Origin: Flammeovirgaceae bacterium UBA4465 | GTDB taxonomy: Bacteria; Bacteroidota; Bacteroidia; Cytophagales; Cyclobacteriaceae | Reading direction: 5' to 3' | Assembly (NCBI GenBank): GCA_905182655.1 | Contig: CAJJCN010000022.1 | Coordinates: forward strand, 26,107-90,106 | Length of the DNA stretch: 64,000 bases | Shown: piece by piece, positions 41,226-48,812 of the stretch | How positions within the stretch are numbered: the stretch's first letter is position 1 | Layout of the letters: the number at the start of each line of letters is the position of its first letter | Program-made: the position numbers and the translations under genes | The notes under the pieces: model-generated | What the model saw: only the letters and a program-made list of their open reading frames with translations | Told to the model about the DNA's origin: nothing | Database searches by the model: none

Positions 41226-41348
41226 AATTATTAATTAAAATGATTAAAACACAAATATATCAAGACCTTGGTGACTAAGCAGTAGGTGATAACAATTGTA
41301 ATAAAAAATATTCCCGCTTTGAAGAAATTAAGACCGCATCAAAATCAT

Positions 41349-41678
41349 TCAAAGCTGACTATTCTTAAGTAATCGCTTATAAAATTCCATTCGAATTAAG
41401 ATCGTTTGATCTAATAGAGTTCTTCCCTCAACTGTTAATTTGACAAGCCGTTTACTTCTCCCACCTCTGTCTTTTGAAATTCCACCTAATTCAGAATCAA
41501 TAAGCCCTTTGATCTCCAATCGACGCAATACCGCATGAATGGCTGTGATATCAATTTTTCGTTTCGCATGAGAAAGCATTTCATCTTGAATAGACTGGGC
41601 ATATACAGAGGATTGAATCGCACCAACGGCCAATAAAATCAATTCCTCAAGTTCCCCAATTGATTTTTTCTTCATCAT
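41349..41678 (-). CDS. PadR-family transcriptional regulator
   Basis: KKSIGELEELILLAVGAIQSSVYAQSIQDEM...ITAIHAVLRRLEIKGLIDSELGG. Listed ORF starts at 41750 within the inverted repeat; Met at 41678/41675 is the likely start. Confidence 0.88.
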   Translation of the reverse strand: MMKKKSIGELEELILLAVGAIQSSVYAQSIQDEMLSHAKRKIDITAIHAVLRRLEIKGLIDSELGGISKDRGGRSKRLVKLTVEGRTLLDQTILIRMEFYKRLLKNSQL

Positions 41679-41686
41679 CTCATCTT

Positions 41687-41742
41687 TATTTATTGTACAA
41701 ATATACATATAATTGATTAAATGTATATTTGTACAATAAATA
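41687..41742. promoter_or_regulatory. perfect 22-bp inverted repeat upstream of padR (candidate operator over the promoter)
   Basis: TATTTATTGTACAAATATACAT (41687-41708), 12-nt spacer, ATGTATATTTGTACAATAAATA (41721-41742); each arm contains a TATATTTG octamer, one on each strand. Confidence 0.8.
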
Positions 41743-41785
41743 TACAACAAAAAAGGCCCTTATAGGCCTTAAATGCGTTTCAACA

Positions 41786-43600
41786 TTAATCAAGATTGAG
41801 TTTTGACATGATTCGGAACAATAAGTAAGCACAGATAGACGACAATAACAATAAGCCCATACCCAAGATAGTATTGCCATAAACGAGACCTCCTATTCCG
41901 AACAGCGAGGTGTATATCGTAATACACCCAATGAATACCAGAAGTATTTGCTTGGGCATCTGCCAAGTGACGCCATGACCTTCGTCACATGGATCCCCAT
42001 CTGCGATGGCCGCATCTACTACTTTCTTCCAACCAGGACCTCCAGGAATAGTGAGCTTATAAAAAGCCCTCAGCACCTCTTTCTTCTCAGGCTTAGTGAT
42101 CAAGGTCGTTACGATCCAAGAAACTGTAACAATACCTACAGTGATTAAAAGCTTAACGGTAAATCCATCCAAAATGGTGGTAGCCACCTGTTGATCGTCT
42201 ACCAATAAAACCAAAATTAAGGCAACGAAGGTAGCCACGACCATCGTAACGATTTCAGTAATCGCATTGATCCTCCACCAAAACCATCGCATGATGTAAA
42301 CCGCACCTGAACCCGCACCCGTTAATAATAATATATTAAAAGCCTCAGTAGCATTATCTAAAACGGTTAGAGACAAGGTCCCTGCAAATACCATAAGTAG
42401 TACCGTGGTGATTCTACCCATTCTGACCATTTGATGCTCAGAAGCATCGGGCTTGACAAATCTTTTATAAAAGTCATTAACAATATAAGAGGATCCCCAA
42501 TTTAAGTGGGTTCCTATCGTCGACATGTAGGCTGCAATGATTGAGGCGACTACTAAACCTAACCAACCAGGTCCTAACTTGGTCAACATTGCTGGATAGG
42601 CGATGTCATCTTTTAGATACTTTGGGTCAATTCCAGGGAACTCAGCCTGAATATCGGAAAGTTCTGGATAGATAATTAATGAAGCCAACGCGACAATGAT
42701 CCAAGGCCACGGGCGTAATGCATAATGTGCAAAATTAAAAAATAACGTCGCCCCCACCGCATTTTTTTCATTTTTGGCAGATAACATTCTTTGGGCTATG
42801 TAGCCCCCACCCCCAGGTTCTGCGCCAGGATACCAAACCGCCCACCACTGCACAGCCAATGGAATAAGTAACAAAGGGACCCAGACGGTCGGATCAGAAA
42901 AATCTGGAAAAAAACTAATCTTATCTGCAATTCTAGGATCATTGATCAATCCACTCAACCCTCCTATTTCTACTATTTCAGGTTGACTTACGGCTACGTA
43001 TGCCGCATAAACGGCTCCAAACATGGCTATGCCATATTGGAAGAAATCAGCCCAAACTACCCCTTTAATACCTCCTAAGGCCGCATACATCACCACCACT
43101 ACAGAAGCGCCAATGACCACTACCCACGGCTCCAATCCCAGCATTACACCTCCGATTTTGATGGCTGCTAAGGTAACCGAACCCATGATGAGACAGTTGA
43201 AGAAAATGCCTAAATAAAGTGCCCTAAATCCTCTTAAAAAAGAAGCTAATTTACCTCCATATCTAATTTCATAAAACTCTAAATCGGTATTGATATTGGA
43301 TTTACGCCACAACCGAGCATAGATAAATACCGTCACCATACCGGTTATGAGGAAAGCCCACCACGCCCAGTTCTTCGCCACGCCATTCTCTCTTACAAAC
43401 CCGGTAACCAAATTAGGAGTATCTGCCGAAAAGGTGCAGGCAACCATAGAAACACCCAATAACCACCATGGCATATCTCTACCCCCTAAAAAAAACTCTT
43501 CTGTACTATCTCCTGCCGTGCGCGAGGCCCACCAGCCAATCCCTAAAACAATGATGAAAAATATACTTATTATTATCCAATCAACGGTCGCTAAAATCAT
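41786..43600 (-). CDS. sodium:solute symporter family protein
   Basis: Multi-TM ORF; GIGWWASRTAGDSTEEFFLGGRDMPWWLLGVSMVACTFSADTPNLVTGFVRE. Likely start is Met at 43600 (listed 43693). Confidence 0.92.
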   Translation of the reverse strand: MILATVDWIIISIFFIIVLGIGWWASRTAGDSTEEFFLGGRDMPWWLLGVSMVACTFSADTPNLVTGFVRENGVAKNWAWWAFLITGMVTVFIYARLWRKSNINTDLEFYEIRYGGKLASFLRGFRALYLGIFFNCLIMGSVTLAAIKIGGVMLGLEPWVVVIGASVVVVMYAALGGIKGVVWADFFQYGIAMFGAVYAAYVAVSQPEIVEIGGLSGLINDPRIADKISFFPDFSDPTVWVPLLLIPLAVQWWAVWYPGAEPGGGGYIAQRMLSAKNEKNAVGATLFFNFAHYALRPWPWIIVALASLIIYPELSDIQAEFPGIDPKYLKDDIAYPAMLTKLGPGWLGLVVASIIAAYMSTIGTHLNWGSSYIVNDFYKRFVKPDASEHQMVRMGRITTVLLMVFAGTLSLTVLDNATEAFNILLLTGAGSGAVYIMRWFWWRINAITEIVTMVVATFVALILVLLVDDQQVATTILDGFTVKLLITVGIVTVSWIVTTLITKPEKKEVLRAFYKLTIPGGPGWKKVVDAAIADGDPCDEGHGVTWQMPKQILLVFIGCITIYTSLFGIGGLVYGNTILGMGLLLLSSICAYLLFRIMSKLNLD

Positions 43601-43756
43601 AAAAAAATAAATTAAATGTGGCTCAATATAAGAAAAAAAACTATTACTATTCGACCCAAACTCACCATTTCTCGTCAAGTATGAATCAATCACCGCTTAC
43701 CTACTCCAAAAAATTGAAATAGGTATTACTGCGCACCATACTTACCTAGACCCTGA

Positions 43757-44794
43757 TTATCTCAACATAAAACCACCAGATAGAGGATCATTGGGATCGA
43801 TCCAAAATTCATTTTTCCCAGTATAAAAGGCCTGCCCTTGGACTATAGGAATTACCGCATCATAATTTGAAAATTTTACTGATTCCTTTATTTGACATTT
43901 AAATTGCGTGCCCAAAATACTTTCAATGGTCATCCAATGATTCAACGCCAATTCTTTGCGCGCATGATGAATCGCCAGCCTTGCAGAAACACCAGAACCG
44001 GTGGGACTACGATCCAATTGCCCATTTGCAAACACGCATACATTACGACTATCCACCTGAGAAGTTTTAGATGATTCTATAAAAATCGTTCCATAAAGAA
44101 AACTCAAATCCTCTTCATAAGGATGGGCTGCAGCCTCGCCATTCAAAGATATCGCCTGCTTGATGGCCATGCCTACGCAAATTAACTTTTGATAGTGGGG
44201 GGGATCACATTTCAAGCCTAGATCAACTGCATTAACAAAAGCATAAAAGGCACCGCCATAGGCCAGGTCATACTGCACCGTTCCTAGCTCGGGAATCTTA
44301 ATGATTTGATCTAATGCGACGACAAAAGAGGGTACGTTCTCAAAGCTTACCGAAACCACTTCTTGGTCAATAACTTCTGCATAAGCCGTCAATATACCGC
44401 AAGGTGCTTCTATTAACACCTTAGTTTGGGGCTCAACCTTTTCAACCCAACCTGAATCTACTGCCAGCTTAGTGATAGCAATCGTGGCATGACCGCACAT
44501 CGTACTGTAACCGTCATTATGCATAAATACTACTCCGAAATCGGCCCTTTGACTAGGGACCACTACGACACCATACATATCTGAATGTCCCCTAGGCTCA
44601 AACATTAATGATTGGCGAAGATGATCATGATTTTCTTTTAAAAACTTTCTGTTTTCAAGCACACTCGCATGCCTCAGTAATGGATATCCCTCCAATATGA
44701 CACGCAAAGGTTCTCCACCTGTATGCATATCAATGGTCTTTATTTTAACCCAATCAATATTGGGTTCGATCCCTCTTAATTTCGCCATATCCAT
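43757..44794 (-). CDS. proline racemase-superfamily protein, trans-3-hydroxy-L-proline dehydratase type
   Basis: TMCGHATIAITKLAVDSGW and DRSPTGSGVSARLAIHHAR (second catalytic Cys replaced by Thr). Confidence 0.85.
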   Translation of the reverse strand: MDMAKLRGIEPNIDWVKIKTIDMHTGGEPLRVILEGYPLLRHASVLENRKFLKENHDHLRQSLMFEPRGHSDMYGVVVVPSQRADFGVVFMHNDGYSTMCGHATIAITKLAVDSGWVEKVEPQTKVLIEAPCGILTAYAEVIDQEVVSVSFENVPSFVVALDQIIKIPELGTVQYDLAYGGAFYAFVNAVDLGLKCDPPHYQKLICVGMAIKQAISLNGEAAAHPYEEDLSFLYGTIFIESSKTSQVDSRNVCVFANGQLDRSPTGSGVSARLAIHHARKELALNHWMTIESILGTQFKCQIKESVKFSNYDAVIPIVQGQAFYTGKNEFWIDPNDPLSGGFMLR

Positions 44795-47285: not shown

Positions 47286-48004
47286 TTGTAATTTTAAGCC
47301 TTTGTAGTTTAGTTGAACTCCAAGGACAAAATTTAAATTATGACAACCTTTGGGATTATGATGAGCAAAATATCCATTATGGGTTTTTAATTGGGGTTCA
47401 CAGTTCGAATTATCGCATCAAATACAATGATGCTTTTGTAAGTCCCGGTATGGATAGTTTACACTCTATAGCCCCTAGTAAACATTTTGGATTTAAACTA
47501 GGCTTTGTTGTTGATCTGTATCTTTTTCAATATCTAAGTTTCAGAATCACCCCTACGGTAGCTTTTTATGAATATGACCTTACCTACAGATATGTAGACG
47601 GTCAAGATGACCTCCTCGAATTTAAAGATGCTACGATGCTTGAAATACCTCTCCTTTTCAAATATAAATCAGCAAGGCGGGGTAATTTAAATATGTATTT
47701 AATCGCAGGACCCAATTTTCAATTTGAAGCTGCTGGTCGCGGAGATGGCGTCAGAACGAGGCAAAAATTAGAGCTTAAAAACTTCAATACTACATTCGAT
47801 GTAGGTATGGGATTTGATATCTTTTATGAACTATTCAAATTCACCCCTGAAATTCGTTATTCTTTTGGCTTCCGAAATTTATTGCCCGATACTTCCAACG
47901 ATTTTGATTCGGCTTTAAGTAAATTAACTACCCACAATGTCACCGCTTTCATCACTTTTGAAGGAGGGCCAACTTATCTTAAAAGAAGAAAAGGCAAATA
48001 TTAG
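47234..48004 (+). CDS. porT: PorT-family outer-membrane beta-barrel protein (T9SS/gliding)
   Basis: Signal peptide; [21 protein letters not shown]...[23 protein letters not shown]; lies directly after ubiE with a 52-nt overlap. Confidence 0.82.
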
Positions 48005-48048
48005 TTATCATTGGTAAATTTGGTAATTTGCCAATGATAACTAATATT
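47997..48048. repeat. 24-bp inverted repeat/hairpin with 4-nt loop spanning the porT stop codon
   Basis: AATATTAGTTATCATTGGTAAATT (47997-48020), TGGT, AATTTGCCAATGATAACTAATATT (48025-48048); 23 Watson-Crick pairs plus one T-G. Confidence 0.95.
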
Positions 48049-48056
48049 CAAAAAAC

Positions 48057-48812
48057 ATGAAACCGATAGCCCTCATTACGGGAGCCTCAAGTGGCATTGG
48101 AAAAGCGACTGCTGAACAAATTGCAGACCATTACGACCTCATTCTTTGTGGTCGACGTACGCCTCGCTTAGAAGCACTGTCCAAAGTATTAAGTAATAAA
48201 ACCCAAGTTTTCATTGGTTCTTTCGATGTAAGAGATCAGTCAGCAGTATCTCATTTCATTGATTCGTTGCCTGATGAATGGCAAAAAATATCAGTATTAA
48301 TCAATAACGCCGGCAATGCACATGGCTTGAGCTTTATCCATGAAGGGGATACCCAAGATTGGGACGCCATGATTGACATCAATGTGAAAGGCTTGCTCTA
48401 TGTTTCGCGTGCCGTCATCCCTAAAATGATCAAAGAACAAGCGGGACATATCATTAACTTAGGCTCCATCGCAGGTACCGACGTATATCCCCGTGGAAAT
48501 GTATACAATGCTTCAAAATTTGCCGTAGATGCTTTGACCAAAGGGATGCGGATGGATTTAAACACATATGGCATCAAAGTCTCCGAAATCAAACCTGGTT
48601 TAGTCGAAACAGAATTTTCAGAGGTTCGCTTTAAAGGAGATCTTGAAAAAGCCAAGCAAGCATATGCCGGCTATGATCCTCTTCAGGCTCAGGACATCGC
48701 CGAGTGCATTGCTTTCATGCTCAGTCGACCTAAACATGTTAATATCGGAGATATGGTAGTTTTACCTTTAGCGCAAGCCTCTTCGACCCTAGTGAATAAA
48801 CAACAAAAATAA
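48057..48812 (+). CDS. SDR-family NAD(P)-dependent oxidoreductase
   Basis: LITGASSGIGKATAEQIA; INNAGNAHG; GSIAGTDVYPRGNVYNASKFAV. Confidence 0.94.
   Translation: MKPIALITGASSGIGKATAEQIADHYDLILCGRRTPRLEALSKVLSNKTQVFIGSFDVRDQSAVSHFIDSLPDEWQKISVLINNAGNAHGLSFIHEGDTQDWDAMIDINVKGLLYVSRAVIPKMIKEQAGHIINLGSIAGTDVYPRGNVYNASKFAVDALTKGMRMDLNTYGIKVSEIKPGLVETEFSEVRFKGDLEKAKQAYAGYDPLQAQDIAECIAFMLSRPKHVNIGDMVVLPLAQASSTLVNKQQK

Follow-up and report, generated by a model that had tools for sequence, protein, structure and literature searches.

The closest described systems are LmrR of Lactococcus lactis (PMC4534193, PMC5428041) and cdPadR1 of Clostridioides difficile (PDB 5dym; PMC5050560), together with the padR/ADOP permease systems defined by the NCBIfam families TIGR03433 and TIGR03434. 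LmrR and cdPadR1 both bind their own promoters (PMC4534193, PMC5050560). LmrR does so as multiple dimers (PMC4534193). cdPadR1 occupies two sites in its promoter, one of them over the -35/-10 elements, and its helices are ~34 Å apart (PMC5050560).

The window, that is, the whole 64,000-nt stretch of DNA analysed here, contains a padR-like gene next to a long inverted repeat. Like LmrR, its product is of the PadR-s2 type by its predicted fold, with a ~110-aa wHTH and a C-terminal helix, and the two share a site of the ATGT-N-ACAT type as well as own-promoter binding and contact with a promoter element (both predicted for the window protein). However, LmrR binds its own promoter weakly via an incomplete motif and has the lmrCD transporter as its main target, whereas the window locus has two near-ideal mirror-image sites and no such transporter gene adjacent to it. 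cdPadR1 is the closest profile match, and its own promoter likewise holds two inverted-repeat sites, but its motif, TACT-N11-12-AGTA, differs in letters and spacing, and many sites are predicted for it in the C. difficile genome. For autoregulation by two dimers, cdPadR1 is the closest precedent. The padR/ADOP systems are similar in that the closest relatives of the window protein precede ADOP-related permeases. For TIGR03433, however, whose cut-off is 101.8 bits, the window protein reaches 21, the permeases of its relatives fall under the TIGR03434 cut-off, and the genus of the window is without a full-length permease of this kind. The repeat very probably serves the PadR-type protein as a double operator for repressing its own transcription, with one dimer predicted on each 16-bp arm.

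The PadR-like protein and its gene neighbourhood

The window protein scored 16.3 bits against Pfam PF03551, for which the cut-off is 27. PF03551 matches were obtained for all 15 homologues at E <=0.1, the best at 2e-10, and a profile built from the homologues retrieved PadR structures in the PDB, with cdPadR1 (5dym) as the best hit. The AlphaFold model from 61 sequences (pLDDT 86.9) showed a wHTH and a C-terminal helix in the order H-H-H-E-E-H, and its best Foldseek matches in the PDB were PadR-s2 proteins (PadR/LmrR/cdPadR1). The protein is thus modelled with a PadR-s2 fold, a ~110-aa wHTH followed by a C-terminal dimerisation helix.

Two signature tyrosines are described for PadR proteins, Y28 of LftR or Y20 of BsPadR, and Y48 of LftR or Y42 of BsPadR (PMC6457526). 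The first is present as Y26, which is invariant in the 61 homologues. The second, in the recognition helix, is missing; the equally invariant H48 aligns with the tyrosine of cdPadR1. Because of this substitution, we describe the protein as PadR-like, from a divergent subgroup. The sequence-only reading had called it a PadR, and this identity stood after comparison with relatives, as a divergent PadR under the Pfam cut-off. The histidine is invariant in the whole Cytophagales subgroup at the position where the PadR recognition-helix signature has tyrosine.

The minus-strand genes are arranged in the order proline-racemase-family gene, SSS symporter, padR-like gene, nucleotidyltransferase and APH-type kinase. 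The SSS-family symporter gene (PF00474) lies upstream of the repeat and ends at 41786, and its terminator sets its transcript apart from that of padR. With the proline-racemase-family gene it covers 41786-44794 on the minus strand, resembling a pair for proline/hydroxyproline uptake and epimerisation, and it adjoins padR in the examined loci of the genus. The downstream nucleotidyltransferase gene is preceded by its own -7 box TATATTTG, which is kept in relatives and points to a separate promoter, so padR is probably monocistronic.

Table 1. Positions of the features at the padR locus, numbered from the first letter of the window
Feature	Position	Strand	Remark
TATATTTG before the downstream nucleotidyltransferase gene	41252..41259	-	window sequence; kept in relatives
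padR-like gene, PadR-s2 type wHTH protein, 109 aa	41349..41675	-	ATG 41675; alternative in-frame ATG 41678
Codon of H48 in the padR-like gene	41532-41534	-	invariant His column in the homologue alignment
padR-proximal arm of the inverted repeat	41687..41708		22/22 complementary to 41721-41742
Putative proximal 16-bp operator TTGTACAAATATACAT (TTGTA-N6-TACAT)	41693..41708		site type recurs at promoters of homologous padR genes
-7 box TATATTTG within the proximal operator	41698..41705	-	TAnnTTTG match
padR-distal arm of the inverted repeat	41721..41742		22/22 complementary to 41687-41708
Putative distal 16-bp operator, inverted (ATGTATATTTGTACAA on +)	41721..41736		28-nt gap between TTGTACAA octamers
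Intrinsic terminator of the upstream SSS symporter gene	41753..41770	-	1 found, 0.2 expected

The inverted repeat and the padR promoter

The repeat sits in a 108-nt AT-rich intergenic gap, where it lies between the symporter gene terminator and the minus-strand padR-like gene, and its arms are separated by a 12-nt spacer (Table 1). When one mismatch was allowed, the symmetry grew inwards to arms of 27 nt. No longer perfect inverted repeat (spacer <=60) occurs within the 64-kb window, and the runner-up, at 47997-48048, has arms of 18 nt. The maximum was <=13 nt in Markov simulations of the window (n=4) and <=14 nt in simulations of the 108-nt intergenic region (n=3000); the length of the repeat is far above chance. 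The runner-up (spacer 16) takes in the end of an outer-membrane-type gene as well as the gap ahead of the SDR-family gene at 48057, and either a terminator or an operator is conceivable there.

Both arms contain TTGTACAAATATACAT, a 7/8 match to ATGT-N8-ACAT. The sequence-only reading had described the two complementary arms with their spacer and this match in each of them, and our recomputation bore out the coordinates as well as the letters. The operator unit is better written TTGTA-N6-TACAW than in that reading. The 16-mer TTGTACAAATATACAT has exactly two copies in the 1.77-Mb assembly, both at the repeat of the padR-like gene. Long perfect inverted repeats in AT-rich intergenic DNA can also be mobile-element remnants (IS or MITE ends) or chance palindromes. 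The simulations exclude chance, however, and we rejected a mobile-element remnant on the single copy in the genome and the one conserved position at orthologous loci, which leaves a negligible probability for this origin.

The repeat overlaps a Bacteroidota -7 box, as had also been claimed from the sequence alone: the minus strand reads TATATTTG in the proximal arm. TAnnTTTG was established in F. psychrophilum as the sigma-A -7 box, located at -12 to -5 (PMC9723704), and this placement would put the padR start site near 41693. At homologous padR promoters, TAnnTTTG with <=1 mismatch was found in 51/56 proximal arms vs 40/56 distal arms, and the exact motif in 30/56 vs 11/56. We saw no convincing -33 box.

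Directly past the symporter terminator, the strand can form a strong hairpin (z -8.4), and the repeat might act in RNA, as a 22-bp AU-rich hairpin located at the end of the symporter transcript (a second terminator or 3' end protection) or in the padR leader. However, the symporter already has a normal terminator, and a transcript from ~41693 includes only ~6 nt of the proximal arm. The letters (TTGTACAA and the -7 box) are also kept in relatives beyond what complementarity needs, with unrelated genes upstream. We rejected the RNA hairpin on these grounds; the letters moreover follow the DNA-reading helix of the protein, as described below, and a role in RNA seems very unlikely.

Regarded as a double operator, the repeat would work as follows. 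The padR start codon lies 12-18 nt downstream, and PadR would act on its own promoter with one dimer per 16-bp arm (TTGTA-N6-TACAT). The dimer on the proximal operator would cover the -7 box and the start site, and that on the distal operator would sit just upstream. The bound dimers would exclude RNA polymerase until the DNA is released, probably when a small ligand binds.

The operator pair and the recognition helix in related bacteria

Those close relatives that carry a name are MAGs of the Cytophagales (Flammeovirgaceae/Cyclobacteriaceae, e.g. UBA4465). One such padR per genome was present in 9/10 genomes of the genus, that of the window and 8 others. The examined genus loci had an unchanged gene context and usually kept the pair, and the repeat is conserved at one position across the orthologous loci. 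Both arms had changed in parallel to TTATACAA in two of them (L070 and L139) and to AAAAATACAT in two others (L014 and L071). Deviating members include L072, with a weakened distal arm, and L017, with an altered pair.

Across the bacterial family, padR homologues were found in 102/198 genomes, often many per genome, and an inverted octamer pair (NNNNACAA ... TTGTNNNN) lay upstream of 56/73 homologous padR genes. A second set of further non-identical padR genes showed an inverted pair in 23/41. The gap was 28 nt in 52/78 pairs of both sets combined, with an overall range of 20-33, and the distance from the proximal arm end to the start codon was 11-20 nt in most homologous padR genes. Three close homologues without a directly upstream pair (L021, L023 and L028) had one further upstream. 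Exact TTGTACAA pairs occurred at 38 places in the 198 genomes vs 3 for the reversed control, a roughly ten-fold excess; 17/38 were at padR loci, as were 12/15 of those with an exact 28-nt gap. The operator type of the homologues was TTGT-N8-ACAA. In some other operator classes, palindromy within single arms was weak, at only 3-4 of 8 positions. One genome had distant paralogues with other or unrecognised sites, the operator detector failing on most of them. The open literature yielded nothing on TTGTACAA with PadR. As a separate observation, two divergent padR paralogues of one genome (L240 and L244, genome G142) share one intergenic inverted pair of the TAGAACAA type, which suggests joint control of both genes.

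After this comparison with relatives, the two PadR-type sites and the autoregulation proposed in the sequence-only reading still stand as the model, with binding and repression predicted. Another regulator might be the main binder and padR a bystander, considering that padR is an orphan here and that its binding is itself a prediction. However, the element accompanies padR genes whose neighbourhoods differ, and there is a correlation between its letters and the predicted recognition helix of padR itself, which makes a bystander role very improbable.

The correlation was observed at several positions. A G at half-site position 3 was found only with Arg51, counted from the second Met (35/35), and the other 36 had no G (Fisher 2e-15, without correction for relatedness). 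Among 78 padR/operator pairs, the inner ACA occurred only with a D-x-T helix (D42/T44; 30/30), and this was repeated in the second set (7/7 and 15/15). Furthermore, 5/10 of the positions most informative on operator class fell within residues 42-52 (p 0.0008). The helix DxTAxHxVLRRLE was paired with TTGTA-N6-TACAW, NxSAxHxVLKRLE mainly with TTATACAA...TGAAW, NxSAxHVALKRM/L with CTTAACAA, NxSAxHAVLNRLE with ATYTACAA...TAGAW, and NxSAxHAVLTRLE mostly with (C/T)TCTACAA. On the tree, whose branches are weakly supported, a single change is seen at residue 42 and about ten at residue 51, and independent-pair tests had too few pairs for significance. Since independent changes are few and the proteins are related, the correlation is not proof; it is suggestive of a protein that reads the arms directly.

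Both half-sites change together in the Asn51 class (ATTTA-N6-TAGAT), as expected of one dimer per arm. The 44-bp element could instead form a single large operator, in which a dimer or tetramer uses TTGTACAA of each arm as a half-site; the symmetry between the arms is perfect and exceeds that within the arms in several paralogue classes. However, the octamers are 36 bp apart vs ~34 Å (~10 bp) for the helices of a PadR-s2 dimer (PMC5050560), gaps of 20-33 nt are tolerated, and the half-sites of one arm change jointly in the Asn51 class. We consider a single large operator unlikely.

Beyond the double operator itself, we tentatively propose that the Cytophagales padR/permease family has a readable code in which the half-site letters depend on a few recognition-helix residues, 42/44 and 49/51. 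Here Arg51 would call for TTGTA, Lys51 mainly for TTATA (with Ala49, for CTTAA), Asn51 for ATYTA, and Thr51 mostly for TTCTA or CTCTA. Such a code may insulate dozens of paralogous PadR circuits per cell, and the gene of the window would be one of these, cut down to an orphan that regulates itself. We see this as a real possibility, somewhat short of probable. Insulation within a cell stays a proposal because the detector failed on most of the distant paralogues of one genome.

A probable permease loss and the orphan repressor

The examined padR homologues of the family were mostly followed by a full-length duplicated MacB_PCD/FtsX permease related to ADOP, and the ADOP-type permease matches of the relatives were roughly 240-590 bits. 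The next gene after the padR of the window is the nucleotidyltransferase, not a permease. A full-length ADOP-type permease was not found in the 10 genomes of the genus, where the best match was partial with 120 bits; the window padR is therefore an orphan. Its position among permease-linked padR genes suggests that the partner was lost in the genus. The circuit would control padR and the duplicated MacB/FtsX-type permease in related bacteria, whereas the genus lacks the permease and keeps padR as an orphan with its operators. We found nothing on padR/orphan permease pairs in the open literature.

A genome scan for the regulon, as the sequence-only reading had suggested, gave no further sites above background in the assembly (81.5% complete). 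TTGTACAAATATACAT with <=3 mismatches matched 36 sites vs 28 in the reversed control. The 44-bp pair as a whole, likewise with <=3 mismatches, gave 28 matches vs 22 in the control, with nothing under 2 mismatches elsewhere. A degenerate pattern scan over the genus returned nothing convincing. At that completeness, the scans support no second target in this genome. Two candidates are not claimed as targets. The site with 2 mismatches on contig C5 sits where a reading frame ends. TTGTACAAAGACAAAT, located between truA and a divergent DUF4293-like gene (1501-1516 of locus L121, and matching places in several genus genomes), is conserved there but corresponds to one arm only, lacks the inner ACA and belongs to a promoter that is conserved as a whole; a second PadR target there, rather than merely a conserved promoter, is possible but unsupported.

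At the window locus itself, the circuit is of a known type, ordinary autoregulation. What is added is a family-wide paired operator whose letters are linked to the recognition helix, and the orphan state in the genus. PadR operator specificity has been worked out for few proteins only, and the dozens of natural paralogous repressor/operator pairs, mostly in a fixed layout, would make a recognition rule readable and testable by swaps of 2-3 residues. The orphan of this genus also offers a clean setting for the question of why evolution retains a self-regulating repressor once the adjacent target gene is gone.
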